From Brotaphodocola catenula (GTDB lineage Bacteria; Bacillota; Clostridia; Lachnospirales; Lachnospiraceae), in contig JAJEPU010000029.1 in NCBI GenBank assembly GCA_020686985.1, forward strand, positions 1 to 41,291: a DNA stretch of 41,291 bases, read 5' to 3'. The notes below the pieces were generated by a model, which was not told where the DNA came from, made no database searches, and worked only from the letters and a program-made list of their open reading frames with translations. The translations under genes and the position numbers were made by a program. The first letter of the stretch is position 1; each line of letters opens with the position of its first letter. Shown here piece by piece: positions 55 through 34,006 of the stretch.

Positions 55-702
55 TTATAAAGTTGTAAACTGGTGTAATGTTTTATCAATGTATCCAATT
101 TTTTTTTCGTGATATGCTACTGGCAATAAAATCTGATAATTCTGCCCAATTCGGCTCTCATTTATATGTCTACTTGGCACATACTTAAAAAATATATCTG
201 TTCTCATAATATAGATACCCGGACAAAATACAACATTTTTACTGAATAATAAATCTTCAAAAAAATTATCTTTTTCAGGTTTAATTCTTTGTAAACGCTT
301 TATAACATTTCCACTCTCATCTACATAATCAGCCCAAGACATTGCCAATGGAATATCTGGATGTTGTTCCATGTATTTCACCTTTTCGCTAATATTGTTT
401 CGATACAATTCGTCATCTGAATCTGGCCAAATAAAGTATTTTCCTTGAATATATGGAAAGCCCAAATTCATAGCCTTTGCTTGTCCACCATTCTCCTGCT
501 TTAAATACACAAAACGAATGTTTCTTTCTTCAAATTTCTCCTTATACTTATAGACAATATTTTCAGTTCTATCAGTTGAGCCATCATTAATAAAAATCAC
601 TTCATAATTTTCATAATCCTGTTCCAAAATTGAGATAAAAAATGCATCTAAATATTTTTCAGAATTATATGACGGAGTAATAATACTCACTAACGGTTCC
701 AC
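55..702 (-). CDS. Glycosyltransferase family 2, last visible gene of the polysaccharide operon
   Basis: Probable cytoplasmic GT-A fold glycosyltransferase of 215 residues that adds one sugar to a lipid-linked polysaccharide repeat unit. The N-terminus has the GT2 signature SIITPSYNSEKYL, followed by the nucleotide-binding FINDGSTD and the metal-binding DSDD motif. I chose a GTG start at 702 because GGAGGT lies 7 bases upstream and because this places the gene after the stop of the upstream polymerase gene. A longer reading from 735 would overlap that gene and has no ribosome site. It is short for a GT2, but both catalytic aspartate motifs are present. Donor and acceptor cannot be told. Family assignment is sure; the specific role is inferred from the operon. 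Confidence 0.88.
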   Translation of the reverse strand: MEPLVSIITPSYNSEKYLDAFFISILEQDYENYEVIFINDGSTDRTENIVYKYKEKFEERNIRFVYLKQENGGQAKAMNLGFPYIQGKYFIWPDSDDELYRNNISEKVKYMEQHPDIPLAMSWADYVDESGNVIKRLQRIKPEKDNFFEDLLFSKNVVFCPGIYIMRTDIFFKYVPSRHINESRIGQNYQILLPVAYHEKKIGYIDKTLHQFTTL

Positions 703-722
703 TTTAACACCTCCACTCAAAT

Positions 723-1991
723 CTAAAACTTCCATTTAATAGTTCTTTTACTGACCATATAAGAAGAATCCGCTACTTTTATATTTGAAACCAACAGGAT
801 AATAATAATCAAAACAATTAGCTGGCATGGATAATATAATGTATTTCCAGTAAAACTATAAACTCCAAACAAAATAATCCAATAAATCAAAAGTATATTC
901 CAAAAAACAGGCTTTTCTTTAACTGCAGATATTGTCTTAAACAGCATCAAGATAATAAGTAATGTCATTAATAGAAAACCAACGATTCCAGTTTCTGCCA
1001 AAAGCTGAATGTATACATTGTGTGCCTGATAATTCCAACGTTCTCCATAATATCGAAATCCTCGATAAAAGGCATAATCATTAAACGATAAAAATCCTTT
1101 TCCAAACAATGGGTTTTGCCGAAACATTTCCATTGCATAATTCCAAAACACTTCTCTACCGGAAAGTACGTCTCCTTCACTATTCACAATGCGATTGATG
1201 ATTAAAGACGCACCAGGAACCAGTACATATGCACCTATAATAAATATAGTAATTCCTAAACCAACACCTGCCAATTTTATAAATTTATTGTTTTTGGAAA
1301 AAAGTATAACATAAATTAGCAAAACTGCTATTGGTATAATAAAAAGCGTCCTTTTTCCCGTCATCATTAGCGCTACCATTACAATAAGACTCTGAATAAT
1401 ATATTTATGTGATTTATGACAGATATATTCTGCAAAAATCATCCCTAGTCCTAAATTGCAGATAAATGCCGCATATGCCTTTTCAAAAGCGAGACCTGCG
1501 ATTGCTCCGCCTGATGTAAGCGCACGCATAGTTTCATCTCCGAATGACGCAAATCCAAACAATCTATGAAAAATATCCGGCGATGCCGCTTCTAAAAACA
1601 TAGAAAAAATAAATATCCAAAATAAAGCCCTGAAGATTTTCAATAAATAGCGATAAAATATTTCTGAAAACCTAAAAAGGACAATACTTATGCCCGAAAT
1701 AAAGTATATACTATAATCTATAGATCCATCAGAACTAGAAAACCAAATGCAACCGACAAGTAGAATTGAAACAAATGCAACATATAGACCTATAAACTTA
1801 TTCATTTTTACTGTATAATCTTTTTTTGAAACGAACAACACAAAACACAAAACGATTATGAAGAGCGATAGGTGTTTTGTGTACATCATCAACTTGTTAT
1901 TGGTAGAAAAAATAACCAGATTAATAAGTAAAGCAATTATTATTTCTAATGTTTTAGTACCAGTTAAATTAGAATGACCTTCCATCTTCAT
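723..1991 (-). CDS. O-antigen ligase/polymerase-like membrane protein (Wzy type)
   Basis: Integral membrane protein of 422 residues with about ten hydrophobic segments and one large loop at residues 260-330. The loop carries features of the O-antigen ligase/Wzy_C family, including SGREVFWNYAMEMF, the short motif GKGF, AHNVYIQLLAETG and a following membrane helix. Such proteins polymerise or ligate undecaprenyl-linked repeat units on the outer face of the membrane. It sits among glycosyltransferases and is the only polymerase candidate in the window, so it is probably the polymerase of this polysaccharide. The ATG at 1991 has GAGAGGG about 7 bases upstream and overlaps the end of the preceding gene by 23 bases, which suggests translational coupling. 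Sequence alone cannot separate polymerase from ligase activity. Confidence 0.85.
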   Translation of the reverse strand: MKMEGHSNLTGTKTLEIIIALLINLVIFSTNNKLMMYTKHLSLFIIVLCFVLFVSKKDYTVKMNKFIGLYVAFVSILLVGCIWFSSSDGSIDYSIYFISGISIVLFRFSEIFYRYLLKIFRALFWIFIFSMFLEAASPDIFHRLFGFASFGDETMRALTSGGAIAGLAFEKAYAAFICNLGLGMIFAEYICHKSHKYIIQSLIVMVALMMTGKRTLFIIPIAVLLIYVILFSKNNKFIKLAGVGLGITIFIIGAYVLVPGASLIINRIVNSEGDVLSGREVFWNYAMEMFRQNPLFGKGFLSFNDYAFYRGFRYYGERWNYQAHNVYIQLLAETGIVGFLLMTLLIILMLFKTISAVKEKPVFWNILLIYWIILFGVYSFTGNTLYYPCQLIVLIIIILLVSNIKVADSSYMVSKRTIKWKF

Positions 1992-3075
1992 TCAAAACCC
2001 TCTCAAAATACTGCTTTGTTTTTATATATTGTTTTCTGATCTGATCATCGGCAAAATTAAAATCTCTACTAACATTTAATCTACAATCCTCTAATGTTTT
2101 CACCTTACATTCATCTAACCCTGTTAAACATAACAAAGATTCGACTCTATCATTAGGCTTAAAATCTTTTTGTAATGCTTCCACATAAAAATCTTTATGA
2201 AAAATAACAGAGAAGGCTGTTCCATGGAATGAATTAGTCACAACATAGTCAGCATATTTTATATATCCCAAAAACTCTTCTACTGATGCCGAATACACTC
2301 CTTTTATATCCGGAGTTTTCATTTGATCTACTACATCAAAATTCAACGCCACAATTTTTCTGCCCGTTAATTTAGATAATTTTCTTGCAAAGTCAAAAAT
2401 CAAATTCGATGTATTCAATTTGTAAATTAATATATAATTCTTAAGTTTAGGTTTCTTTGCAAGTTTTTCCCATTCTTCTGCGGTCAATAAAAAGACTGGA
2501 TCCACAGATAATTCCGAATCTTTTCCGGTTAGTTTTTTTACAATCTGTTGTCCTGCATTTTCACGGATAGATAATTCAGAAAAAGTTGATAGCAAACTTT
2601 TATAATCATTTACATAGCTGTCTGGAATCTCCTTCATACCAAACGAAGCAGCATAGGAAAGTTTGTTATCACAATTTTTTACAAATTGTAAAAAATATGT
2701 TTTATCGAAATCTGTACATGCAAAATTGAAAACCTGATCGCTTCCTGTTATAAACTTATCGTAGCGAAGATTCGCCTTATCTATATTAAACTTATCATAA
2801 ACTTCTGTACTTATTCGGACATTTTGATTCAAAAATCTGTAAAATTCTCTTTTTTTCTTATATGTGTTTTTAAAATTCAACATTCCTCTAATAATCTGTT
2901 TTACAGACTTGTCCTTTATTGTGAATGTTTTATAAAAATTTTCCATATGTTCACATCGATAATCTATAACCTCTGCATCATAGTTAGAAACATTTAAAAA
3001 TTTCTGTAATGCATATGTTTGCAAAACTGCCCCATAATTAATTGCTCTGTGAAACGTAATAATTCCTATTCTCAT
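1969..3075 (-). CDS. Polysaccharide pyruvyl transferase family protein
   Basis: Protein of 368 residues in the polysaccharide pyruvyl transferase family (PF04230), which moves pyruvate from phosphoenolpyruvate onto a sugar as a ketal and so gives the polymer negative charge. Visible family marks are the N-terminal IGIITFHRAINYGAVLQTYA, the ITGSDQVFN segment near residue 110, YAASFG, and the C-terminal VTNSFHGTAFS segment with its conserved histidine. I placed the start at ATG 3075 because AGAGGG lies 6 bases upstream; the longer reading from 3096 has no ribosome site and would run into the upstream gene. It lies 17 bases after a GT2 gene and overlaps the polymerase gene. Some relatives act on other substrates, so pyruvylation is the expected role rather than a shown one. 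Confidence 0.88.
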   Translation of the reverse strand: MRIGIITFHRAINYGAVLQTYALQKFLNVSNYDAEVIDYRCEHMENFYKTFTIKDKSVKQIIRGMLNFKNTYKKKREFYRFLNQNVRISTEVYDKFNIDKANLRYDKFITGSDQVFNFACTDFDKTYFLQFVKNCDNKLSYAASFGMKEIPDSYVNDYKSLLSTFSELSIRENAGQQIVKKLTGKDSELSVDPVFLLTAEEWEKLAKKPKLKNYILIYKLNTSNLIFDFARKLSKLTGRKIVALNFDVVDQMKTPDIKGVYSASVEEFLGYIKYADYVVTNSFHGTAFSVIFHKDFYVEALQKDFKPNDRVESLLCLTGLDECKVKTLEDCRLNVSRDFNFADDQIRKQYIKTKQYFERVLNEDGRSF

Positions 3076-3092
3076 AAATATCCCTCTATAAA

Positions 3093-7531: not shown

Positions 7532-8664
7532 TACTTTTCTCCCCTATATAACTTCAATGTTTCTTCCACAACCATATCCCAGTCGTATTTCTTACAGATA
7601 AAATCCGCTGCCTGTGCTTTTAATATCATCACCTTTTCCGGATGATCACATGCCTCTTGCAGGCAAGCACACAGATCATTCACATCTGATTTCTTAAAAA
7701 TCAACGCTTTATCTTGCACCACTTCTGCGCACTCCGGAATATCGGATACCAGACAGCAGTTTCCGTAGCTCATTGCCTCCAACAGACTTAACGGCATTCC
7801 CTCTAAATCAGATGGCAGGGTATAAATATAAGCATTGCTGTACAATTCCTCCAACATCTGACCCTGGACAAAACCGGTAAAGAGGATTCGATCATCTTCT
7901 TTTGCCAGTTCTCTCAATTCATTCGTAAAAGAATCGGTATCGCTCGAACCACCGGCAATCACCAGTTTCTTGTCTGTCTCAACCTGCTTAAACGCTTCAA
8001 TCAGATAGCGAAGTCCCTTTTCTGGAACAAGCCGTCCCAAAAACAAAATATAGGAATCTTTGGTAAGACCAAATTTTTTCGTAATCAATTCCGCTTTCTG
8101 AATCTCCGGTCGGCTCACACCATTCGGGATAAAGTGGGTGGATCGTCCATAGGTATTTTTAAAATAATCCTCTACTCCTTTACTTAAAACGATGATCTCA
8201 TCTGCATATTTCACGGCATTTTTTTCACCCTGCCGAATATATTTTGAACCAAAACCGGATTTCCACTTTTCTCTCTGCCAATCAATTCCATGAATCGTGA
8301 CAATCACTCTTTTTCCAAACATCTTAGGAAGCCATGAAAAAAAAGCCGGTCCTTCTGCATGGATATGTACCACATCGTATTTTCCAAAAGCGCTACAAAG
8401 AGCTGCAAAAAATGAAGAACTAACTGCTGCTAAACCCTTCATCTCAATTGTCGGAACAGACTTTTGACGAATTCCTTCATATTCTATTTTTATGCTTCTG
8501 TCATACTCTGCACCGCTCACATGATGCCCCGACCTGTTGTAACAGGTCACTTGATACCCCATCTGTGCCATTCTCGTACAGAGTTCTTTTACGACAATCT
8601 CAATGCCGCCTTCTCTGGTCAGCCTTTTATGACCAAACATAGCAATTGCAAATCTTTTTTTCAT
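7531..8664 (-). CDS. Glycosyltransferase family 4
   Basis: GT-B fold glycosyltransferase of 377 residues. The N-terminal domain has MFGHKRLTREGGIEIVVKEL, VTCYNRSGHH and VHIHAEGPAFFSWLPKM, a pattern typical of GT4 rhamnosyl/glucosyl-type enzymes in polysaccharide clusters. The C-terminal donor domain has LFLGRLVPEKGLRYLIEAF, VIAGGSSDTD and the E-x7-E region PSDLEGMPLSLLEAMSYGN. I chose ATG 8664 over the in-frame GTG at 8676 because GGAG lies 6 bases before it. It starts 41 bases after the LoaP-like gene, so it is the first structural gene of the operon. Base composition is closer to the rest of the genome than that of the genes below 7.2 kb. Confidence 0.92.
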   Translation of the reverse strand: MKKRFAIAMFGHKRLTREGGIEIVVKELCTRMAQMGYQVTCYNRSGHHVSGAEYDRSIKIEYEGIRQKSVPTIEMKGLAAVSSSFFAALCSAFGKYDVVHIHAEGPAFFSWLPKMFGKRVIVTIHGIDWQREKWKSGFGSKYIRQGEKNAVKYADEIIVLSKGVEDYFKNTYGRSTHFIPNGVSRPEIQKAELITKKFGLTKDSYILFLGRLVPEKGLRYLIEAFKQVETDKKLVIAGGSSDTDSFTNELRELAKEDDRILFTGFVQGQMLEELYSNAYIYTLPSDLEGMPLSLLEAMSYGNCCLVSDIPECAEVVQDKALIFKKSDVNDLCACLQEACDHPEKVMILKAQAADFICKKYDWDMVVEETLKLYRGEK

Positions 8665-13610: not shown

Positions 13611-14438
13611 TCACTTTCCCATACGGGTAACCGACTCGGTAATCAGCTGTTTAAACAGCGGAGCTACACGGTCAGCGGTCTCCTTGACTTCCTCATGTGT
13701 GAGTGGCTGGTCGCTCATTCCAGCTCCCATATTGGAAATACAGGAAATTCCGCAGACCTTCATTCCCATATGGTTTGCCGCAATCGCCTCGCACGCCGTG
13801 CTCATTCCAACCGCATCACCGCCGAGAATCCGACACATCTTTACCTCATGCGGGCTCTCAAAATTCGGTCCGGTGAGCTGAATATACGTTCCCTCTTTGA
13901 GATCAATATTCAGATCTTTTGCAGTCTGGCGAATGATCTCACACAGATTCTTGTTATAGATCTCACTCATATCCGGGAAGCGCAGACCAAGCTCCTCAAT
14001 ATTGGGTCCGATGAGCGGAGACGGCACAAAATTCGCAATCTGGTCGGTGATCATCATGAAATCGCCAGCCTTGTAGTCAAAGTTGACTCCACCCGCTGCA
14101 TTCGTCAGGAACAGGATATCCGCGCCCATCATCTTCATCAGACGAGTCGGAAGTACCACATCCTCCATCGAGTATCCCTCGTAGTAATGCACACGACCCT
14201 GCATGATCACAACCGGAACCTCATTGACATAACCGAATACAAAACGTCCCTTGTGTCCGCTCACCGTCGATACCGGGAATCCATCGATCTCATGGTAATC
14301 AAGTGTTGTCTCAATCTTGATTCCATCCGCATAGTCTCCAAGACCAGATCCAAGAATCAGTGCTACCTTCGGGGTAAAATTCACTTTCTTCTTAAAGCAC
14401 TCGTAGCAGTTTAAAAGACGCTCATAAGCCTTTGTCAT
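13611..14438 (-). CDS. punA: Purine nucleoside phosphorylase (trimeric, inosine/guanosine type)
   Basis: Cytosolic enzyme of 275 residues that splits inosine, guanosine and their deoxy forms with phosphate into base and (deoxy)ribose-1-phosphate. The PNP/MTAP family II pattern is clear: ALILGSGLGDYAD (phosphate loop), STVSGHKGRFVFG, MQGRVHYYEGYSMEDV, LTNAAGGVNFDYKAGDFM, and the base-binding GPNFESPHEVKM with VGMSTACEAI. Length is typical of the trimeric family. The ATG follows AGGAGGAGATATTT. A strong promoter lies 120 bases upstream. It begins a likely operon with the NSS transporter and HAD phosphatase. The Bacillus counterpart is called PupG, so the symbol is a convention. Confidence 0.96.
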   Translation of the reverse strand: MTKAYERLLNCYECFKKKVNFTPKVALILGSGLGDYADGIKIETTLDYHEIDGFPVSTVSGHKGRFVFGYVNEVPVVIMQGRVHYYEGYSMEDVVLPTRLMKMMGADILFLTNAAGGVNFDYKAGDFMMITDQIANFVPSPLIGPNIEELGLRFPDMSEIYNKNLCEIIRQTAKDLNIDLKEGTYIQLTGPNFESPHEVKMCRILGGDAVGMSTACEAIAANHMGMKVCGISCISNMGAGMSDQPLTHEEVKETADRVAPLFKQLITESVTRMGK

Positions 14439-14586: not shown

Positions 14587-14619
14587 GAAGCTTGCCAATT
14601 CTGGCACAGATTCCGACAC

Positions 14620-14655
14620 AAAAAGAAGACCTTGCTAACCACGAGCACAAGGTCT
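14620..14655 (-). terminator. Rho-independent terminator of the PII-like gene
   Basis: Minus-strand stem AGACCTTG (14655-14648) and CAAGGTCT (14634-14627) with a 13-base loop, then TCTTTTTG. It lies about 30 bases after the stop of the PII-like gene and closes the LysR/DUF1538/PII unit. Confidence 0.85.
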
Positions 14656-14684
14656 CCCGAAAATCTTTTAAAGCACCTTATTCC

Positions 14685-15383
14685 CTATGCTTCCTTCTCC
14701 TCTTTTGCATCCTCAATCAGGCGCATACCCGCAGTTGAGGTCACCGGAAGAGAAAATACAATCGTTCCTGCCTTGCTCTTCACGCCGGCGTCTCTCATGA
14801 TCGCCTGCATGATGTCGTTTTTCTGCTCCTTCTTGACAACAATCAGGATGACATCTTTTTCTGCGACGAGCACAACCCCGAGGAAATGCTCCGCGCGCTC
14901 CATTCCTGTTCCCTTTGCGTGAATCACCGTACCACCGGACGCTCCCGCACTGCGCGCCGCATCCATCACCATTTCCGTATAGCCCTGATTGGAGATCGCA
15001 ATCAACAGCTCGTATCTGGTATCCTTCAAGATCGACTCCTCCTCTTTCTCAAAATTCTGATTTTCCGTAAGGAACTGCAACGCCCTCTTTCCTCCGATGC
15101 TTGAAAGAGGAATGATAAATGCCACTCCCATTCCCGGAAGGTCAATTCTCATTTTCGTCTGAAGCCCCATCTTGATCTTCTTCCAGACACTCTTCGTCAC
15201 AAATGACCAGATCAGTGCCTTTTCCGAGCTCTCTAAACCGAGCAGATTCAGCGTCTCATTCCCGGCTGTTCCACGTCCGACTGTTCCAAAGGAGATCGTC
15301 AATCCTTCTTCCTGATAAAAGTTCTGAAATTTCCGGTACATCGACCGATTTGTGATCGTCATCATCATATACAGTTCGCTCAT
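14685..15383 (-). CDS. PII-like regulatory protein with two tandem PII-type domains
   Basis: Soluble protein of 232 residues that appears to be two ferredoxin-like PII domains in one chain. The first (about 1-110) begins SELYMMMTITNRSMYRKFQN and holds ISFGTVGRGTAG. The second (about 120-220) begins YELLIAISNQGYTEMVMDAA with SAGASGGTVIHAKGTG and ends GTIVFSLPVTSTAG. PII proteins are trimeric sensors of adenine nucleotides and other small ligands that gate transporters and enzymes. Pairing with a DUF1538 membrane protein 124 bases upstream suggests it gates that transporter. The T-loop region of the second domain is short and lacks the canonical uridylylation tyrosine, so control would be by ligand rather than modification. 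Start 15383 matches family starts; a GTG at 15413 is the alternative. Ligand unknown. Confidence 0.78.
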   Translation of the reverse strand: MSELYMMMTITNRSMYRKFQNFYQEEGLTISFGTVGRGTAGNETLNLLGLESSEKALIWSFVTKSVWKKIKMGLQTKMRIDLPGMGVAFIIPLSSIGGKRALQFLTENQNFEKEEESILKDTRYELLIAISNQGYTEMVMDAARSAGASGGTVIHAKGTGMERAEHFLGVVLVAEKDVILIVVKKEQKNDIMQAIMRDAGVKSKAGTIVFSLPVTSTAGMRLIEDAKEEKEA

Positions 15384-15506
15384 ATTCGATCTAATCCCAC
15401 CTCTCTCCTGCACATTATTTTCCTCACACGTTAATGCCGTATGCCCATTTCCATTTTATCTTATCTTTCATGTACCTTTTTATTTTCTTAATTTCTACAC
15501 CGTTAT

Positions 15507-17045
15507 TTACAGCTCAATGATTGCATCCTCATCCAGCAAATCCCAGGCTGTTGCGCCTGCCGGAAGCGGTGCTCTTCCCTTTGCCTTCTTGCTCTTGAGC
15601 TGGAAAATCATACCGAGAATCTGAATCGTAATCAGCGGTGTCATCGCAACCATTGCGACCACGCCAAACGCATCCTGCACAATATTTCCGCCAACGGCAC
15701 TGCACGCCCCCTGTGCTAGCGGAAGCAGAAACGTCGCAGTCATCGGACCGGAGGCAACACCACCCGAATCAAATGCGATTGCCGTGAAAATCTTTGGCAC
15801 GAAGAACGAGAGTCCGATCGCAATCCCGTATCCGGGAATCAAAATCCAAAGAATCGGAATTCCCGTGAGCACGCGAAGCATCGCAATTCCAACCGAGCAC
15901 GCCACACCGATCGAGAGACTCGCACCCATCGCACTCGCCGGGATTGCTCCGTCCGTGATCTCCTCCACCTGCTTGTTGAGCACATAGACTGCAGGCTCTG
16001 CCTTTACGATAAAATAACCGATTAACATGCCGATCGGTACGATAATCCAGCGGTACGGAAGGCTTGCAAGCACCTCGCCGAGATACGTTCCCGCCGGCAT
16101 GAAGCCGACATTTGCACCCGTCAGAAACAATACAAGACCCACATAAGTATACACAAGACCAATTCCAATTCTCGTCAATGAGCGTTTGCCAATCTTTAAG
16201 ACAAACACCTGAAAAAGCCCAAAAAATCCAAGGATCGGAAGCAGAGAAACCGCAATCTCCTTTAAATACTCCGGAAGTTCTTCCATAAACATTCCTGCCA
16301 GCTCTACTGAATCCGCAACGGTATGGATCTGAGTGACTGCGTAGGTACTGTTCTCCGGCTGATAGATTTTCACGAGAAGAAGCACTGCAAGAATCGGACC
16401 AACCGAGCACAGAGCAACGAGACCGAAGCTGTCGGAGGCTGCATGGCGGTCACCGCGGACTGCCGAGATACCGGCTCCAAGCGCAAGAATAAACGGCACA
16501 GTCATCGGTCCTGTCGTCACTCCGCCTGAGTCAAATGCAATACCGATAAAATCTTTCGGAATCTGAGATGCCAGAAGAAAGACAAAGGCATAACAGCCAA
16601 CAAGGAGCGGAGGAAGCGCAATGCCAAGAAGCATACGAAGCAGGGCAATCGCAAGAAAAATCCCGACACCAACTGCGACCGCAAGAATTAGCGTCATATT
16701 GGGGATCGATGGCACCTGTCCTGCAAGTACCTGAAGATCCGGCTCTGAGATCGTGATCACAAAACCGAGCGCAAATGTCACTGCCGTCAACACCAGAAGA
16801 CTCCGGCACTTAGACAGACTCGAGCCGACACGCTCTCCCATCGGACTCATCGACATCTCCGCTCCCAGTGTAAAAAACATCATTCCGACAATCAGCAAGA
16901 CCGCTCCACACAGGAAACACAACAAAATTCCCGGTGAGATCGGGGCGACTGTAAAGCAGAGCACCAGCACAATCGCAATGATCGGAAGCACTGCACTGAG
17001 AGCTTCCTGCAATTTTTCATGTAATTTTGTCTTCTCTCTGATCAA
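15507..17045 (-). CDS. DUF1538 polytopic membrane protein, internally duplicated
   Basis: Integral membrane protein of 512 residues with about 12-14 hydrophobic helices. The two halves are repeats: FDSGGVTTGPMT (171-182) in the first matches FDSGGVASGPMT (425-436) in the second. GAEMSMSPMGERVGSSL matches GANVGFMPAGTYLG, and EPDLQVLAGQV matches EPAVYVLNKQVEEIT. Such duplication with conserved Gly/Pro/Asp loops is the pattern of a secondary transporter, and the family (PF07556) is often found next to PII-like proteins. The transported molecule is not known. The start is a TTG at 17045 with a perfect AAGGAGG 6 bases before it, which may lower translation. It shares a unit with the PII-like gene downstream. 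I am sure of the family, not of function. Confidence 0.88.
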   Translation of the reverse strand: MIREKTKLHEKLQEALSAVLPIIAIVLVLCFTVAPISPGILLCFLCGAVLLIVGMMFFTLGAEMSMSPMGERVGSSLSKCRSLLVLTAVTFALGFVITISEPDLQVLAGQVPSIPNMTLILAVAVGVGIFLAIALLRMLLGIALPPLLVGCYAFVFLLASQIPKDFIGIAFDSGGVTTGPMTVPFILALGAGISAVRGDRHAASDSFGLVALCSVGPILAVLLLVKIYQPENSTYAVTQIHTVADSVELAGMFMEELPEYLKEIAVSLLPILGFFGLFQVFVLKIGKRSLTRIGIGLVYTYVGLVLFLTGANVGFMPAGTYLGEVLASLPYRWIIVPIGMLIGYFIVKAEPAVYVLNKQVEEITDGAIPASAMGASLSIGVACSVGIAMLRVLTGIPILWILIPGYGIAIGLSFFVPKIFTAIAFDSGGVASGPMTATFLLPLAQGACSAVGGNIVQDAFGVVAMVAMTPLITIQILGMIFQLKSKKAKGRAPLPAGATAWDLLDEDAIIEL

Positions 17046-17126
17046 CCTCTTCCTCCTTCACTCTTCGCTTTCTATTTTTTGTTTCTGTCCCAACTTAAGC
17101 AAAATCTCATTTTGGTTTGAGACCTT

Positions 17127-17135
17127 ATTGTAACA
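17127..17135 (-). promoter_or_regulatory. Candidate extended -10 promoter of the DUF1538-PII unit
   Basis: Minus strand TGTTACAAT (17135-17127) fits an extended -10 element; no good -35 box is seen at the right distance. It lies downstream of the LysR gene terminator and 82 bases before the DUF1538 start, so it would be the point a LysR regulator acts on. Confidence 0.5.
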
Positions 17136-17178
17136 TAAAATCTGTGAAGATTCTGTGATTGTTAAGAAACTTTAACGG

Positions 17179-17207
17179 AAAAAGGAACTGCTCTCACAGT
17201 CCCTTTT
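17179..17207 (-). terminator. Terminator overlapping the end of the LysR gene
   Basis: Minus-strand stem AAAAGGGACTG/CAGTTCCTTTTT (17207-17197 with 17190-17179, one G-U pair) with a short loop that contains the TGA stop codon of the LysR-type gene (17194-17196). The U-run follows directly. Translation up to the stop would cover half of the hairpin. Confidence 0.75.
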
Positions 17208-18384
17208 CCATCTCCCGCTTCGAGATCTCAAGAAATTTTCTTGCGCTCAGCGGAAGCTCTTCTTCTTTTCGGTATGCCGCCACAAGTTGCCAGAGTGCAT
17301 GCACGCTCCGATCGATCGGGAAATACTCAAGCCCCTCTGTTCCCGAAAACAGAGTCAGATACGAGCGCGGGAGGAAGGTTGCCCCAAGTCCCGCTGCGAC
17401 AAGGCGTTTCGTCGTCTCCATGCTCTTTGAGACATATCTCACATCCGGAATGATTCCCGCGCAATTCAGGATCTGATCCCCGACAAGACGTAGTTTCTGC
17501 CTGCTCTCGACAAGAATAAATGGCTCCTGCGCAAGCAGAGAGATCTGAACCGCCGTCAGAGGTTGATTCTTCTGAAATGGAAATCTGCCGTGCCAGCTCA
17601 TCGGAAGCACCAGATAGAACGGGTCCTCGAGAAACTTTTCATACTGAAGTCCCGGGGACTCCTCCTGAAAATGCATCACACAGAAATCCACCTTTTTCTG
17701 AAACAGCAGACGCTCAAGCTCCATAGAATTATTTTCGCGGAACTTGACCTGAATCCCCGGATAGAGCTCCGAAAACTCCGGAAGCACCGCCGGGAGCACA
17801 TAGGCGGCGAGATTGACCGGAATTCCAACCGTCAAAATTCCTTTTTTCATCTGCTGGTATGCCTCAAGCTCCACGCGCATCTGGCGCGAAAGTGCCTGCA
17901 CCTGCTCAAGCTGATCGAGAATGCTCCCTCCTGCTACTGTCTCCTCGACGCCCTCACTCGTTCTCAAAAACAGCGAGATTCCGAGGCTTTCCTCGATTTG
18001 AATCACCGCCTGACTCAGCGACGGCTGTGCGATGAAAAGCTCATCCGCTGCCCGGGAAATATTTTTCTGCTGGCGAATCTCAATCAGATAGCAGACATCA
18101 CTCTCCGTCCACTCGCGCAAGTAGGAAGTCTCAATATTCCCGAGTGTGCGAATTTTCATAAAGATCTCTCGAATCCTTCTGCCAAATGCCAGAACAACCT
18201 CTCCCTCCGGTGTCGGCACAACGCCACTGTGACTGCGCCGAAATAGAGTCACTCCGAGTTCTTCCCCGACGGACCGGACAACCCGGTTTAAAGTCGAGGC
18301 ATCGCGCTTGAGCAGAGAGGAAGCCTTCTGGATGCTTCCCTGCTCTGCAATCGTCTCAAGGTAACGCAGTTGCCGTTCATTCAT
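17194..18384 (-). CDS. LysR-family regulator with two DNA-binding domains
   Basis: Regulator of 396 residues, about 100 longer than usual LysR proteins. Residues 1-60 are a full LysR winged helix (ERQLRYLETIAEQGSIQKAS, ELGVTLFRRSHSGVVPTPEG). Residues 96-150 are a second one (DVCYLIEIRQQKNISRAADE, LFIAQPSLSQAVIQIEESLG, ISLFLRTSEGV). The periplasmic-binding-like effector domain follows from about 172 (GILTVGIPVNLAAYVLPAVL) to 385. LysR proteins bind as tetramers near the promoter and respond to a small effector. The second helix-turn-helix (IAQPSLSQAV) is closest to the consensus; the first (LKRDASTLNRVV) is more diverged. It lies directly before the DUF1538/PII genes and 42 bases after hydA, so either may be its target. 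The DNA-binding duplication is seen directly; its use is unknown. Confidence 0.9.
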   Translation of the reverse strand: MNERQLRYLETIAEQGSIQKASSLLKRDASTLNRVVRSVGEELGVTLFRRSHSGVVPTPEGEVVLAFGRRIREIFMKIRTLGNIETSYLREWTESDVCYLIEIRQQKNISRAADELFIAQPSLSQAVIQIEESLGISLFLRTSEGVEETVAGGSILDQLEQVQALSRQMRVELEAYQQMKKGILTVGIPVNLAAYVLPAVLPEFSELYPGIQVKFRENNSMELERLLFQKKVDFCVMHFQEESPGLQYEKFLEDPFYLVLPMSWHGRFPFQKNQPLTAVQISLLAQEPFILVESRQKLRLVGDQILNCAGIIPDVRYVSKSMETTKRLVAAGLGATFLPRSYLTLFSGTEGLEYFPIDRSVHALWQLVAAYRKEEELPLSARKFLEISKREMEKGL

Positions 18385-18426: not shown

Positions 18427-20148
18427 TTATCTCAGCAAATCTCTCCGGCTGTGATACGTTGTGTGAAGCAGTTTGTGGGAGCGCTCACCGAGCGGTTCTC
18501 CAAGATACTCCTCGTAAAGTCTCTGCACATACGGATTCTCATGAGATTTGCGGATCGGCAGGCTTCTATCCTCCTCATAGATTGCGCGTCTTCTCTCTGC
18601 AAGAATCCGGCGAGTCTTCGGCGCATTTCCGCCACCTCCGATACATCCGCCCTCGCACGCCATGACCTCAATGAACTGATATGGGGAGGTTCCCGCCTTG
18701 ACTTCATCGAGTACCTTTCTCGCATTGCTCAGACCATGAACGACTGCGACGCGAACCTTCATTCCATTGAGATCGATCTCCGCTTCACGGATTCCCTCTG
18801 TTCCACGCACCTGGTCAAACTCGAGACGCGGTAAAGTTTCTCCGGTTACAACCTCATAGACCGTGCGCAGAGCTGCCTCCATCACACCGCCGGTCGTTCC
18901 AAAGATCTGACCGGCTCCGCTTCCGAGACCGAACGGGCTGTCAAATTCCTGATCCTCGAGATCGTCAAAATGAATTCCTGCGGTGCGGATCATCTTCGCA
19001 AGCTCCTCAACCGTGATCGAGATGTCGACATCCTGATAACCGCTGTCGCACATCTCCGAGCGCTTGCACTCAAATTTCTTTGCGGTACACGGCATGACGG
19101 AAACACTGCAAATATTCTTCGGATCGATCTCTGCTTTCTTCGCGTAGTAAGTCTTGATCACAGCGCCGAACATCTGCTGTGGGGACTTTGCGCTCGAGAG
19201 ATGAGAGAGCTGTTCGTAACCATAGGTCTCACAGTACTTGACCCACGCCGGACAGCACGAGGTCATCATCGGGAGAGTTCCACCATTTTTCAGGCGATTT
19301 AAGAACTCATTTCCCTCCTCCATGATCGTCAGATCTGCGGTGAAATCCGAGTCGAATACTTTTGAAAATCCGATTTTTCGCATTGCGTGGATGATTTTTC
19401 CTGTCGTCACCGTGCCGGGTGCATAGCCAAGAGACTCCGCGAGCGTGATGCGCACCGACGGCGCTATCTGAGCGACAACGTGTTTTCCCTTTGCGATCTG
19501 ATCGTAAACCTCATCCGTATTGTCACGGATTGAGAGTGCACCGACCGGGCAGACCTGAATACACTGACCGCAGTTGACACAGCAGGTATCGACGAGCTTC
19601 TTGCCATACGGCGGAACCACTGCGGTTCCATATCCACGATTCTCTTTTGCCATAACCGTGATTCCCTGTCCCTTTGTGCACGCCTCGACACAGCGTCCGC
19701 AGAGAATGCACTTGCTCATATCACGGACAATCGACGGTGACGAATCGTCAAACCGACTCTCCCTCACATCGCGCTCATAGCGGTTCGGGCGATTCATATT
19801 TAAGTCGCGCGCCACTTTCTGAAGCTGACATTTTCCATTCTTGGAGCAGACGAGACAGTCCTGTGGATGTCTTGCGAGAATCAGCTCCATGATGTTCTTT
19901 CTTGCCTTGATGACCTTCGGGGATGCCGTCTTGACTACCATTCCCTCCGAGACCGGCATACTGCATGCGGTCGGCAGAAGGCGCTGTCCCTCGACCTCGA
20001 CCACACAGATTCGACAGACTGCCTTGACAGCCTGATCTTCATGATGGCAGAGCGTAGGGATGTGAACGTTGAGCCTTCTGGCTGCCTCCAAGATCGTCGT
20101 TCCCTCCTCTACCGCAATCGCTTCTCCATCTATCGTCAGATTAATCAT
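18427..20148 (-). CDS. hydA: [FeFe]-hydrogenase catalytic subunit, NADH-linked type
   Basis: Iron-only hydrogenase of 573 residues that reduces protons to H2 or oxidises H2. Order of domains: an N-terminal [2Fe-2S] fold (CHHEDQAVKAVCRICVVEVE), a His-ligated [4Fe-4S] site (HPQDCLVCSKNGKC), two [4Fe-4S] clusters (CILCGRCVEAC and CVNCGQCIQVCPVG), then the H-cluster domain. All three H-cluster motifs are intact: TSCCPAW, MPCTAKKFE and EVMACEGGCIGGGG. A small-subunit-like tail ends the protein. It overlaps hydB by four bases (ATGA), so the two are translationally coupled. Length and cluster set match HydA/HndD of multimeric hydrogenases. Maturases HydE, F and G are not in the window and must lie elsewhere. 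Confidence 0.97.
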   Translation of the reverse strand: MINLTIDGEAIAVEEGTTILEAARRLNVHIPTLCHHEDQAVKAVCRICVVEVEGQRLLPTACSMPVSEGMVVKTASPKVIKARKNIMELILARHPQDCLVCSKNGKCQLQKVARDLNMNRPNRYERDVRESRFDDSSPSIVRDMSKCILCGRCVEACTKGQGITVMAKENRGYGTAVVPPYGKKLVDTCCVNCGQCIQVCPVGALSIRDNTDEVYDQIAKGKHVVAQIAPSVRITLAESLGYAPGTVTTGKIIHAMRKIGFSKVFDSDFTADLTIMEEGNEFLNRLKNGGTLPMMTSCCPAWVKYCETYGYEQLSHLSSAKSPQQMFGAVIKTYYAKKAEIDPKNICSVSVMPCTAKKFECKRSEMCDSGYQDVDISITVEELAKMIRTAGIHFDDLEDQEFDSPFGLGSGAGQIFGTTGGVMEAALRTVYEVVTGETLPRLEFDQVRGTEGIREAEIDLNGMKVRVAVVHGLSNARKVLDEVKAGTSPYQFIEVMACEGGCIGGGGNAPKTRRILAERRRAIYEEDRSLPIRKSHENPYVQRLYEEYLGEPLGERSHKLLHTTYHSRRDLLR

Positions 20149-21431
20149 ACTGCATCGTCCTCCTCACTGCACACATGGCAGTATTCCCGGTCAATATGGC
20201 GCAGATAACAAGAATAAAAGTTCTGGATACTGCTCGTCACCGGAACTGCTGTGGAGTGACCAAGTCCACACAGTGCGGTCAGACGCATCGTCTCTGCCAG
20301 ATCCTCAATCGTTTCAATGTCCCGGATGCTTCCGCGTCCCTCCGCGATCTTGCAGATCAGCTGATAGAGTCGCGTACCGCCCTCTCGGCACGGTGTACAT
20401 TTTCCACAGGACTCGTCCTTAAAGAATTCCAGATTGTTTCGCACAATATCAATGATGCAGTTGCGATCATCCATCACAAGGATCGTTCCACATCCGAGAC
20501 GACCGCCCGAGTTTGACACCTGATCGATGTCGAGCGTCATGTCGATCTGGGACGCGTTGATGATTGCACCGGATGCACCACCGGTCTGAACCGCAAGCAG
20601 CTCGCGACCTTCCTCCATGCCACCGCAGACCTCATAGATCAGATCCTTTAAATTGATTCCCATCGGGAACTCAAAAACACCTCGGCGCTTGACATTTCCG
20701 CAGACCGTAAACAGCTTTGTGCCCGGGCTGTTGTCGGTTCCGATTGTGCGGTACCACTCCCAGCCGTTCCGAAAGATCGGTGCAATATTTGCGAGTGTCT
20801 CGACGTTGTTGAGCACCGTTGGCTTTCCGAAAAGACCTGAGATACCCGGAAACGGCGGGCGGAATCTCGGCTCTCCTCGTTTTCCCTCGATCGATTCAAA
20901 GAGTGCGGTCTCCTCACCGCAGACGTAAGCGCCTGCACCGGAGCGGAGCTTGATGTCAAAGTCAAATCCGCTTCCCATGATGTTATTTCCCAGACAATGC
21001 TCCTCTCTCGAGGATTCCAACGCCTGCTCAAGTACCGGAACAAGGTAGGCATACTCGGCGCGCAGATAGATGAAACCGACATGGGCATTGACTGCCTTTG
21101 CGACGATCGCCATTCCCTCAAAGACCGCACACGGATCACAGGAGAGAAGAATACGGTCTTTGTTTGTTCCCGGCTCTCCCTCATCGGCGTTGCAGACGAT
21201 GTATTTCACATCACCCGGAGCGTCATAGGCAAACTGGATTTTGCGGAAGGTCGGGAAACCTGCGCCTCCGCGTCCGCGAAGCCCTGCAAGGCGAAGCTCC
21301 TCGATGATCTCCGCTCCGGTCATTGAGAGTGCCCGCTTGAGCGCCTCATATCCACCGGTCGCGATGTACTCGGATGCCTTTCTCGGATTGATTTTTCCAC
21401 GATTTCTTAAAAGAATCTGTCGCTCTTCCAT
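20145..21431 (-). CDS. hydB: NuoF-like NAD(H)/FMN hydrogenase subunit, short form
   Basis: Flavoprotein subunit of 428 residues that links the hydrogenase to NAD(H). It has the NADH/FMN-binding core (LAGLRGRGGAGFPTFRK, CNADEGEPGTNKDR, GAYVCGEETALFESIEG), the SLBB-like region, and one [4Fe-4S] site, ESCGKCTPCREGG. HydB proteins of electron-bifurcating enzymes are usually near 600 residues, with an N-terminal thioredoxin-like [2Fe-2S] domain and a C-terminal two-cluster ferredoxin domain. Both are absent; the C-terminus stops soon after the core with only a CHVC remnant. This bears on whether the complex can bifurcate to ferredoxin. It starts 3 bases after hydC ends and overlaps hydA. The ATG follows a GGAG-type site. 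Confidence 0.95.
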   Translation of the reverse strand: MEERQILLRNRGKINPRKASEYIATGGYEALKRALSMTGAEIIEELRLAGLRGRGGAGFPTFRKIQFAYDAPGDVKYIVCNADEGEPGTNKDRILLSCDPCAVFEGMAIVAKAVNAHVGFIYLRAEYAYLVPVLEQALESSREEHCLGNNIMGSGFDFDIKLRSGAGAYVCGEETALFESIEGKRGEPRFRPPFPGISGLFGKPTVLNNVETLANIAPIFRNGWEWYRTIGTDNSPGTKLFTVCGNVKRRGVFEFPMGINLKDLIYEVCGGMEEGRELLAVQTGGASGAIINASQIDMTLDIDQVSNSGGRLGCGTILVMDDRNCIIDIVRNNLEFFKDESCGKCTPCREGGTRLYQLICKIAEGRGSIRDIETIEDLAETMRLTALCGLGHSTAVPVTSSIQNFYSCYLRHIDREYCHVCSEEDDAV

Positions 21432-21434
21432 CTC

Positions 21435-21938
21435 CTACACCTCCCCGCGGATATACCGCTTCACGATATCCCGGACACTCTCCGGTGTCAGGTTGACGTA
21501 AGCCTTCTCATTGATCATGATTGCCGGTGACTGCTCGCACACGCCGAGACACGGACAATATTCAAGCGTAAATCTCCGATCCTCCGTCGTCTCACCCATC
21601 TTGATCTGAAGCAGATCTTCCAGTGCCCGGACAATCTCTTTTGCGCCACGCACATGACAAGGAGCACTCTTGCACATGCGGATCACATATTTTCCGCGCG
21701 GTTTTACGGAAAGCATCGCATAGAACGTGACAAAACTGTAAACCTGCGTCTGCGGGATATCCATCTCTCGCGCAATCACCGAGGCAACTGATGCAGAAAA
21801 TGCCGGTTCAATCTTTTGAACCTTTGTAATCACCTTCATCAGCATCTCCGGTCTCCCTTTGTAGTGGGAAGCAATCTCCGCAATCTTCACCAGCTGGGAT
21901 GACGGGGTCTTGTAACTGTAATTCTCCTCTTCTCTCAT
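21435..21938 (-). CDS. hydC: NuoE-like [2Fe-2S] hydrogenase subunit
   Basis: Thioredoxin-fold [2Fe-2S] protein of 167 residues, homologous to the 24-kDa subunit of complex I. Cluster ligands are visible as CKSAPC and CPCLGVC in the C-terminal half, preceded by the helical N-terminal domain (EIASHYKGRPEMLMKVITKV). It would pass electrons between the HydB flavin and HydA. I set the start at ATG 21938 because AAGGAG lies 10 bases upstream; the longer reading from 21995 adds a sequence unlike the family. First gene of the hydrogenase operon, directly followed by hydB and hydA. Confidence 0.95.
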   Translation of the reverse strand: MREEENYSYKTPSSQLVKIAEIASHYKGRPEMLMKVITKVQKIEPAFSASVASVIAREMDIPQTQVYSFVTFYAMLSVKPRGKYVIRMCKSAPCHVRGAKEIVRALEDLLQIKMGETTEDRRFTLEYCPCLGVCEQSPAIMINEKAYVNLTPESVRDIVKRYIRGEV

Positions 21939-22105
21939 CCGGACTCTTCTCCTTTCAAAAACAGGTCTGAAACATAGCCCTTGCTTGTCCAACAAAATCT
22001 CTTATCGAATATTTTCTTAAATATTCTCTCTGACCTGCCCGTTTTTTCTGAAAATAAGTATAGGAGAAGATGCACTTTACGTCTAATATGGAAAATGCGT
22101 GCCAT

Positions 22106-32341: not shown

Positions 32342-33538
32342 TCATCCACAGTTTGCTCGATCATCTTCATCTGTCCCACTGTCATTATCCTCTCCGTGCT
32401 CGATCTCGCCCTCAATCAGGAAATCCTCTCCAAGTCTTGTCACTGTCATAGTGTCTGCGCGGAGTCTGACTGCCTGTTTTGGTGTTCTCACACCCTCCCC
32501 CTCAATCGGTGTCTTTGCTTTTCTTCCTCCAAAAAGTTTCGGTGCAAGGTAAGCCTGCACATGATTGACAAGTCCGGCATTCAAAACAGACCAGTTGAGC
32601 GTTCCCCCGCCTTCAAGGAGAATACTGTCAATTTTCATTTTTCCAAGTTTTTGCATCAGATCGTTCAGATCAAGATGACCGTCTCGCTCTTCTGTCACCA
32701 GAACCTGGCATCCGCTCTGCTCATACAAGGTTTTGCGCTCCGCATCCTGACAACAGGTGGCAAGAATGACTGGGGCACTCTCTCTGTCCGCCGTCTCCAC
32801 AATCTTGGAAGTGAGCGGTGTTCGAAGATGCGTGTCGCAGACAATGCGAATCGGATTTCGCCCACCCGCGATTCGACAAGTCAACAGCGGATCATCCGCA
32901 AGCACCGTTCCGACTCCCGCCATAATCGCCGTATAGCGGTTTCTTTGCCCTTGTACATGTGCTCTCGCCTGCTCTCCCGTAATCCACTTCGATGCGCCTG
33001 TCGCAGTCGCAATCTTTCCATCGAGTGTCATCGCATATTTCATCACGACATACGGAAGTCCTGTGCGGATATACCAGAAAAATACCCGATTGAGTTCTCT
33101 GCACTCCTGTTCAAGCACATGCTCGGTGACCTGCACGCCGTGATTTCGTAAAATCTCAATCCCCTTTCCGGCGACAAGCGGATTCGGATCTCCGCTTCCA
33201 ACCACGACTCTCGCAATCTTTGCCTCGAGAACCGCCAATGTGCACGGTGGCTGTTTGCCATAATGACAGCACGGTTCAAGTGTCACATAGAGAGTCGCTC
33301 CCTCCGGAGACTCGGTACACGAGGCAAGCGCATTTCGCTCTGCATGCGCTTCGCCGTATCTCTCATGATACCCGCTCCCAATGACCTCTCCATTTTTTAC
33401 AAGAACCGCGCCGACTAACGGATTCGGAGAAACTCGCCCCGTCCCCTTTTTTGCAAGTTCAAGCGCCATCCGCATATATTTCTGATCGATGTTGTTCTGC
33501 TCTATATCATTCTGCTTTGTATCATTTTGATCTGCCAC
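32342..33538 (-). CDS. ribD: Bifunctional riboflavin deaminase/reductase
   Basis: Protein of 398 residues. Residues about 22-145 are the cytidine-deaminase-fold pyrimidine deaminase with the zinc site GEAHAERNAL and EPCCHYGKQPPC. Residues 160-370 are the NADPH-dependent reductase (VVMKYAMTLDGKIAT, GVGTVLADDPLLTCR, LLEGGGTLNWSVL). It carries out the second and third steps after GTP cyclohydrolase II. The start is a GTG at 33538 with GGGAG 6 bases upstream. The first 20 residues (DTKQNDIEQNNIDQK) are a short QND-type repeat absent from most homologues and coincide with a low-complexity DNA stretch. First gene of the operon, 203 bases after the riboswitch terminator. Confidence 0.97.
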   Translation of the reverse strand: MADQNDTKQNDIEQNNIDQKYMRMALELAKKGTGRVSPNPLVGAVLVKNGEVIGSGYHERYGEAHAERNALASCTESPEGATLYVTLEPCCHYGKQPPCTLAVLEAKIARVVVGSGDPNPLVAGKGIEILRNHGVQVTEHVLEQECRELNRVFFWYIRTGLPYVVMKYAMTLDGKIATATGASKWITGEQARAHVQGQRNRYTAIMAGVGTVLADDPLLTCRIAGGRNPIRIVCDTHLRTPLTSKIVETADRESAPVILATCCQDAERKTLYEQSGCQVLVTEERDGHLDLNDLMQKLGKMKIDSILLEGGGTLNWSVLNAGLVNHVQAYLAPKLFGGRKAKTPIEGEGVRTPKQAVRLRADTMTVTRLGEDFLIEGEIEHGEDNDSGTDEDDRANCG

Positions 33539-33770: not shown

Positions 33771-33895
33771 ATGATATTCTGTGACTGATCAATCTTTTGT
33801 CTGATATCGAGTTCATATCTAATCTGATCCTGATACCTAACGGATATCCAAATAGTTCTATCTGTCTATTCTGCGTATGTGCGATTGTGTCATAA

Positions 33896-34006
33896 TCTTC
33901 TTTCATCCAGACTATACTGTCGGCCTCGGAATTTCACCGAATCATGCCTTACGGCTCGTGGGCTATCACCACCGGTGGGGAAACACTCCCCGCCCTGAAG
34001 ACGTTG
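33896..34006 (-). promoter_or_regulatory. FMN riboswitch (RFN element)
   Basis: The minus strand carries the conserved RFN blocks in order: CTTCAGGGCGGGG, CCCCACCGGTGGT, AGCCCACGAGC, TTCGGTGAAATTCCGAGGCC, GACAGTATAGTCTGGATG and AAAGAAGA. It senses FMN and controls the rib operon at transcription, through the terminator at 33741-33770. Position and gene context agree fully. Confidence 0.97.

Follow-up and report, generated by a model that had tools for sequence, protein, structure and literature searches.

Monovalent-cation/proton antiporters set the pH and salt balance of the cell, and what switches their activity is often unknown. In a 41,291-nucleotide stretch of Brotaphodocola catenula (contig JAJEPU010000029.1, positions 1 to 41,291, from the 3.3 Mb draft genome GCA_020686985.1), referred to below as the window, a membrane protein gene of the DUF1538 family is followed by a gene for a tandem PII protein. 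A first-pass annotation had joined both genes to the LysR regulator gene upstream, as one uncharacterised system for an unknown solute. The analysis presented here favours, with a probability of roughly 0.64, a narrower reading in which DUF1538 and the tandem PII protein form a two-gene module, namely a UmpAB-family antiporter that exchanges monovalent cations for protons, together with a PII protein dedicated to its regulation. The module and its boundaries comprise the following features.

17178–17210, minus strand: terminator-like hairpin with a T run between the LysR and DUF1538 genes; module boundary, not a member
15507–17045, minus strand: DUF1538 (PF07556) membrane protein of 512 amino acids, starting at TTG and consisting of two halves, each treated as a domain of seven segments
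16335–17045, minus strand: DUF1538 half 1, UmpA-like, N terminus predicted inside from charge bias
15510–16334, minus strand: DUF1538 half 2, resembling UmpB and inverted; from charge bias its C terminus is predicted to lie inside
14685–15413, minus strand: tandem PII protein; GTG 15413 is the listed start and ATG 15383 the likely true one
15057–15383, minus strand: N-terminal PII-like domain; its T-loop region contains GRGT, and GMGVAF resembles a B-loop
14712–15026, minus strand: C-terminal PII domain (Pfam P-II)
14610–14670, minus strand: terminator-like hairpin 3' of the PII gene, from folding

Conservation of the DUF1538-PII gene pair

The first-pass annotation had proposed a survey of gene neighbourhoods, and across the samples surveyed the adjacency of DUF1538 and PII genes was conserved. 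In a sample of 150 genomes of the family, DUF1538 was detected in 46 and a PII match in 47, with 45 genomes common to both; the PII matches in two of the 104 genomes lacking DUF1538 (G011 and G013) were both weak. Regions were taken from 44 of the 46 (G000 is the window's own genome, and G010, which holds only a DUF1538 fragment, was left out), and in every one of the 46 cassettes the next gene downstream, on the same strand, was PII; one of them has a broken DUF1538 gene (L107). Among named contigs, a set of the best 80 of at least 576 relatives that leans to close relatives, PII was downstream in 78, and the remaining two (L160 and L165) run off the contig. This set reaches Christensenella and Breznakiella, the latter a spirochaete. 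In a phylum-wide sample DUF1538 was found in 84 of 249 genomes, and 80 regions were drawn from 71 of the 83 other genomes, strongest first among the matches listed. PII was downstream in 80 of 84 cassettes; those without it were L282, at a contig end, a fragment in L212 split off by an insertion, and L211 and L242, which are weighed below. Nine plasmid records matched, the same nine being returned with Methylocystis UmpB as the query, and PII was present in all seven that were fetched (7/7), two of them alphaproteobacterial. The gene order is DUF1538, DUF1538, PII on the Methylocystis rosea plasmid and short DUF1538 piece, DUF1538, PII on the Chelativorans plasmid, and the PII genes of both carry the existing annotation 'P-II family nitrogen regulator'.

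Over all sets, 228 rows were scored and PII accompanied DUF1538 in 220, or in 215 of 223 once duplicates were removed; two of these rows stem from the broken locus L323 and are artefacts. The two genes overlapped in 100 of the 220 cases and lay within 50 bases of each other in 98 more, spacings that were measured on first-start open reading frames (ORFs) and can overstate overlap. The DUF1538-PII gene pair is therefore conserved, and it shows the adjacency of PII and transporter genes that is looked for in a PII-gated pair.

The number of PII domains was also compared with the arrangement of DUF1538. Fused DUF1538 proteins with PII had a tandem PII protein in 172 cases and two PII genes in the other seven, so that 179 of 179 had two domains and none had one. 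Separate DUF1538 pairs were more mixed, with one PII in 12, tandem PII in 13 (L107 broken, L260 frameshifted) and two PII genes in five. DUF1538 as a single gene of full domain length was found ten times, with one PII downstream in nine; the tenth is L211. A tree of the C-terminal DUF1538 domain was reconstructed from 88 rows: the window, 35 non-fused rows, seven fused ones that have two PII genes, and a subset of 45 from the 172 whose fused protein goes with tandem PII. With a midpoint root, fused proteins formed one clade (99 by Shimodaira–Hasegawa-like approximate likelihood ratio test, SH-aLRT) and single-domain proteins another (SH-aLRT 100). The match between arrangement and PII number is consistent, although it does not represent many independent events.

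Within the window's genus, seven of the ten other genomes with a match carry an intact DUF1538 gene with tandem PII and three carry remnants. In these remnants (L323, L324 and L325, from G414, G415 and G409) the DUF1538 gene is decayed; the C-terminal PII half of G414 is still open. Because three genomes carry only such decayed remnants, the module is being lost in parts of the genus. In the phylum sample, the umpA-like gene of G186 (L212) is interrupted at ~645–3078 by an insertion of ~2.4 kb with two large ORFs (~554 and ~253 amino acids), which resemble an IS21-type pair when the ORFs are read, not from a database result.

Architecture of the two proteins and the predicted PII ligand site

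Each of the three genes had been described as internally duplicated, and all three duplications are real. The window DUF1538 protein matches PF07556 in two stretches (3e-138; 458 bits against a gathering score of 22.6), which places it in the family, and FDSGGV-x-x-GPMT is present in both halves. The LysR protein has two LysR-type helix-turn-helix (HTH) matches, corresponding to its two DNA-binding domains, and one effector domain. In the PII protein, the C half exceeds the cut-off for Pfam P-II (PF00543; 47.8 bits against 25), while the N half has no Pfam match of its own and was recognised by profile comparison (hhalign P 2.8e-21 against the C half and 5.2e-21 against single PII proteins) and by a predicted single-chain model, in which its strands and helices follow the same order as in the C half. 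The N half also exists as a separate gene in some relatives. The PII protein likely starts at ATG 15383 (MSELY...) rather than GTG 15413, because several homologues start there, and the TTG start of DUF1538 at 17045 is plausible because AGGAGG lies six bases upstream.

Other signals described in the first-pass annotation fared less evenly. A dedicated terminator is supported by folding, which gave a hairpin with a T run after the PII gene at 14610–14670 (−18.1 kcal/mol, z −2.33, six of 200 shuffles as good) as well as the boundary hairpin at 17178–17210 (−17.9 kcal/mol, z −5.26, 0 of 200 shuffles as good). However, a simple terminator scan listed neither hairpin and found one site, on the other strand (4.4 in shuffles). 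The internal promoter was not recovered: a sigma-70 scan found none 5' of DUF1538, with three hits against a shuffled mean of 3.4.

To compare the two DUF1538 halves, the aligned domain was cut into seven segments by hydropathy and Lys plus Arg residues were counted on alternate loops, here X and Y; the loops were chosen after viewing the charge profile of all five sets, so no set is a fully independent check. In the window, half 1 carries nine such residues on X loops and one on Y loops, and half 2 carries two and 12, respectively. Across the set, the bias was +8.2 for half 1 (positive in 184 of 184) and −8.4 for half 2 (negative in 184 of 184). UmpA-like proteins showed +3.65 (positive in 25 of 26, one zero) and UmpB-like proteins −6.9 (negative in 25 of 26, one zero). 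Since the biases are opposite, the positive-inside rule indicates that the halves are inverted repeats, predicted to be inserted in opposite directions. Such a split fits the seven predicted segments of UmpA and of UmpB (PMC5484666; papers are cited by PMC number for the excerpts used). Single-domain forms had a bias of −0.1 (range −3 to 2) over ten rows including the broken L323, or −0.11 without it, and with no charge bias they look like dual-topology proteins. The AlphaFold model of the DUF1538 protein reached a predicted local distance difference test score of 81.6 and a predicted template-modelling score of 0.82, and E-P and F-D were invariant in both halves of eight aligned DUF1538 proteins.

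The PII sequences were then examined at positions of the classical ligand site, in GlnB numbering. Thr29, Gly35, Gly37 and positions 90, 101 and 103 are presumed to have the same roles as in GlnB. The roles of the B-loop (TGXXGDGKI, binding adenosine triphosphate, ATP), Gln39 and Lys58 are those given in PMC4316997. Neither TG..GDGK nor GDGK was found in any of 232 cassette PII ORFs, duplicates included; the sequences thus show loss of the B-loop motif that defines classical PII proteins (GlnB/GlnK). Gln39 is lost as well, Gln not being among the four commonest letters at its column in the N-domain, C-domain or single-PII sets. Residue 90 is mostly Ile in place of Lys, and position 101 is Gly, where an Amt-PII fusion protein of the window genome has Lys. 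Other positions are kept: all 22 single PII proteins and 99 % of C domains have Thr29, and Gly35 and Gly37 are present in 86–100 %. A conserved E-K-E is located around Lys58, where the alignment shifts between sets, so that Lys58 itself is only possibly retained. Among C domains, 49 % retain Arg at position 103, which counts against a clean loss of the classical site. B-loop-like glycines are found in 75 and 99 % of N domains, of which 23 % have Thr29, and in 28 and 42 % of C domains, in which Thr29 is kept. The two halves thus appear to have decayed in complementary ways, and a nucleotide site is possibly shared between the unlike domains.

Based on the residues kept and lost, the ligand would be a non-classical nucleotide, probably of adenine type, and probably without a 2-oxoglutarate response. 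PstA, a PII-like protein that binds cyclic di-adenosine monophosphate (c-di-AMP), resembles the window protein in being without Gln39 and the B-loop motif (PMC4316997). The motif of PstA is TKLXXXGGFLXXGNTT; in contrast to PstA, the window protein is assigned to classical P-II by Pfam. PMC6908673 gave no match for the ATP-site residues. The canonical PII domain of the window genome forms the C-terminal part of a protein that otherwise resembles an ammonium transporter (L111, G000:C23, ~7638–7955, minus strand), in an open frame of 596 amino acids that keeps the TG..GDGK motif; the transporter identity is a reading of the ORF.

Predicted transport function and its putative control by PII

The solute had been called unknown and the system uncharacterised, which is out of date, as UmpAB of Halomonas zhaodongensis is a published Na+(Li+, K+)/H+ antiporter, reported to be a heterodimer (PMC5484666). 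UmpAB was found through a salt-tolerance screen and makes Escherichia coli KNabc tolerant of Na+, Li+ and alkaline pH (PMC5484666), and DUF1538 is listed in a table of pH-related families (PMC13255231). The window protein shares the DUF1538 family with UmpAB, whose two homologous subunits have seven predicted segments each. It differs from that pair in being one fused chain.

In the preferred reading, the membrane protein, whose fold is predicted, would be an inverted-repeat transporter built from two DUF1538 domains, as the charge bias suggests, and by analogy with Halomonas UmpAB it would exchange Na+, Li+ or K+ for H+. The tandem PII protein would bind its cytosolic face and adjust or block transport according to ligand, most likely by inhibition, as for GlnK and SbtB. 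Docking and regulation are proposed because of the gene linkage, the matched domain number and the precedents of GlnK-AmtB and SbtB-SbtA. The earlier suggestion that PII gates the transporter stands in part: the strongly supported adjacency of DUF1538 and PII makes it the leading reading, while the role given to LysR does not hold.

PII proteins inhibit Amt, Nrt, Urt and SbtA transporters (PMC10710835; PMC8352866). As in the window, the GlnK-AmtB system combines a PII gene next to a transporter gene with a PII fold, but its transporter belongs to another family, and the window PII protein is a tandem without the TGXXGDGKI B-loop. SbtB-SbtA likewise pairs an inverted-repeat transporter with a PII-like protein from a neighbouring gene; SbtB binds adenosine monophosphate and its T-loop enters the transporter (PMC8352866). 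Unlike the window tandem, SbtB has a single PII domain and is trimeric. Comparison of the DUF1538 model with SbtA by Foldseek showed no relation (E 0.16, template-modelling score 0.14).

A hint of ion homeostasis came from Rfam scans of all 80 phylum regions, in which two of 84 cassettes, from different Bacillota families, had a c-di-AMP riboswitch immediately 5' of DUF1538 and in the same orientation.

L228, 4571–4698: c-di-AMP riboswitch, ending 18 bases before umpA
L277, 4749–4896: c-di-AMP riboswitch, 50 bases before DUF1538

Riboswitches of this class commonly control potassium and osmotic genes. They occur in 161 of the 249 genomes, mostly one to three each and at most nine, so by a rough estimate the chance expectation for such a placement in 84 cassettes is far below one. 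A riboswitch model built from 20 copies found both of these and one in L212, located after PII and facing the next gene. With two of 84 cassettes, the riboswitch is a supporting hint and not a general feature.

Several observations weigh against the antiporter reading. The window protein falls far below the equivalog cut-offs for UmpA (NF041627; 170.2 against 490, 4.4e-50) and UmpB (NF041628; 142.2 against 500, 1.8e-41), and for this reason its ion could differ. PII control seems confined to transporters able to work as trimers (PMC10710835), whereas UmpAB is reported as a heterodimer (PMC5484666). L242 (G367:C36) has an intact fused DUF1538 gene with no PII beside it and is the only clean exception to the linkage, and at L211, near a contig start, PII lies on the upstream side of DUF1538. 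The tree requires few changes (two in DUF1538 arrangement, four in PII number), the samples are mostly Bacillota, with Halomonas outside them, and the riboswitch model, run on the window and 142 further sources (family, genus, plasmid and named-contig sets), found no copy.

The best surviving alternative, which we regard as rather unlikely, accepts the pair but gives it a solute other than a monovalent cation, for example an anion or a metal, with PII reporting nitrogen or carbon status. This would agree with the low equivalog scores and with the ammonium, nitrate, urea and bicarbonate carried by known PII-controlled transporters (PMC10710835), and in our judgement a salt-tolerance screen such as that behind UmpAB can catch side activities. 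However, in the one DUF1538 pair for which transport was measured, the exchange is of Na+, Li+ and K+ for H+ (PMC5484666), the E-P and F-D residues are invariant in both halves, and c-di-AMP riboswitches lead two members. Moreover, no nitrogen-assimilation gene besides PII was found within ~4 kb in five annotated plasmid regions, the survey of neighbours elsewhere covering seven window genes.

An alternative with still less in its favour holds that PII helps to assemble or stabilise the membrane protein, or is a signal that the membrane protein sequesters and recruits to the membrane to control other targets. Close spacing and matched domain numbers would also fit a structural partner, and membrane sequestration of GlnK by AmtB appears in the reference list of PMC10710835. 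A role in assembly is countered by UmpAB itself. The cloned 4.2-kb insert runs from ORF1 to ORF4 with umpB as ORF4, the last ORF (PMC5484666), so a neighbouring PII gene is not needed for UmpAB to fold and transport in E. coli. Activity of this kind fits a regulator role for PII, although the clone is not a clean test because E. coli has PII proteins of its own.

PII control of a DUF1538 antiporter would be a new pairing, adding a transporter class to the short list of Amt, Nrt, Urt and SbtA and, if dimeric, an exception to the remark on trimers (PMC10710835). A PII-DUF1538 module was not found described in the open-access papers searched, preprints being outside this scope. Neither PII nor P-II appears in the main text of the UmpAB paper (PMC5484666) or was found in that of PMC5996927, PMC6055358, PMC12093952 and PMC10030654; PMC7221264 mentions PII once, away from its one DUF1538 passage, and DUF1538 and UmpAB are not among the PII-controlled systems listed in the excerpts of PMC10710835. 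If the antiporter reading is true, a DUF family and an orphan PII subfamily become one testable question. A fuller scheme is speculative and, taken as a whole, doubtful. It would have PII control a dimeric dual-topology antiporter in place of a trimer; DUF1538 would have passed from a single dual-topology domain through an UmpA/UmpB pair to a fused inverted repeat, with PII going from one domain to two alongside. In the fused form each DUF1538 domain would then be matched by a PII domain, and two specialised, partly degenerate PII domains would share a nucleotide site. Such a system would link nucleotide state directly with the homeostasis of Na+/K+ and pH in gut Clostridia.

The LysR gene and other neighbours of the module

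The minus-strand gene order in the window is nuoE-like, nuoF-like, hydA, LysR, DUF1538, tandem PII and purine-nucleoside-phosphorylase-type gene. The genes flanking the module are as follows.

21435–21995, minus strand: nuoE-like gene of a cluster for a [FeFe] hydrogenase dependent on reduced nicotinamide adenine dinucleotide (NADH)
20145–21431, minus strand: nuoF-like gene, NADH-dependent [FeFe] hydrogenase cluster
18427–20148, minus strand: hydA, group A6, NADH-dependent [FeFe] hydrogenase cluster
17194–18384, minus strand: double-HTH LysR regulator, a neighbour judged outside the module
13611–14438, minus strand: purine-nucleoside-phosphorylase-type gene (Pfam PNP_UDP_1)

That LysR, DUF1538 and PII form one sensor-gate-channel system, as first proposed, is highly improbable: although the three genes are adjacent on one strand in the window, no LysR-like ORF (BLAST against the window LysR, E <= 1e-4) lay within 1.2 kb upstream of DUF1538 in any of the 204 cassettes with that stretch visible, of 228 examined, double-HTH orthologues lie off the DUF1538 contigs, and the terminator-like hairpin splits LysR from DUF1538. 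The conserved three-gene set thus failed in relatives, and LysR was rejected as a member for this lack of linkage, the differing surroundings of its orthologues and the hairpin. The LysR gene begins 42 bases beyond hydA, and a hairpin with a T run lies at its end; for these reasons it most likely closes the hydrogenase transcription unit.

LysR-like ORFs elsewhere in the region were seen in four regions (L072, L077, L110 and L116). In the family sample, where up to 12 candidates per genome were scored, no LysR match (E <= 1e-30) except that of the window itself covers the first HTH. Full-length orthologues of the double-HTH protein were found in three of 23 other genomes of the genus, with 48–50 % identity, all on contigs other than that of DUF1538. 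One is beside hydA (L313), a second is near TetR-like and acyl-coenzyme-A-ligase-like genes (L314; names from reading the ORFs, not a database result), and the third is near an isocitrate-dehydrogenase-like gene (L315; also an ORF reading) and a gene of the multidrug and toxic compound extrusion (MATE) type. A MATE-type gene of the window was matched in L315.

In a genome of another family (L239, 3–3201), nuoF- and hydA-like genes with 47 % identity to those of the window lie directly upstream of DUF1538-PII on the same strand, with no LysR gene. This was the sole case of nuoF/hydA upstream in the regions scanned; it may reflect chance or a local link, and it complicates the picture. Elsewhere in the window, a flavin mononucleotide riboswitch is located at 33891–34006, ~350 bases 5' of a minus-strand ORF starting at 33538.

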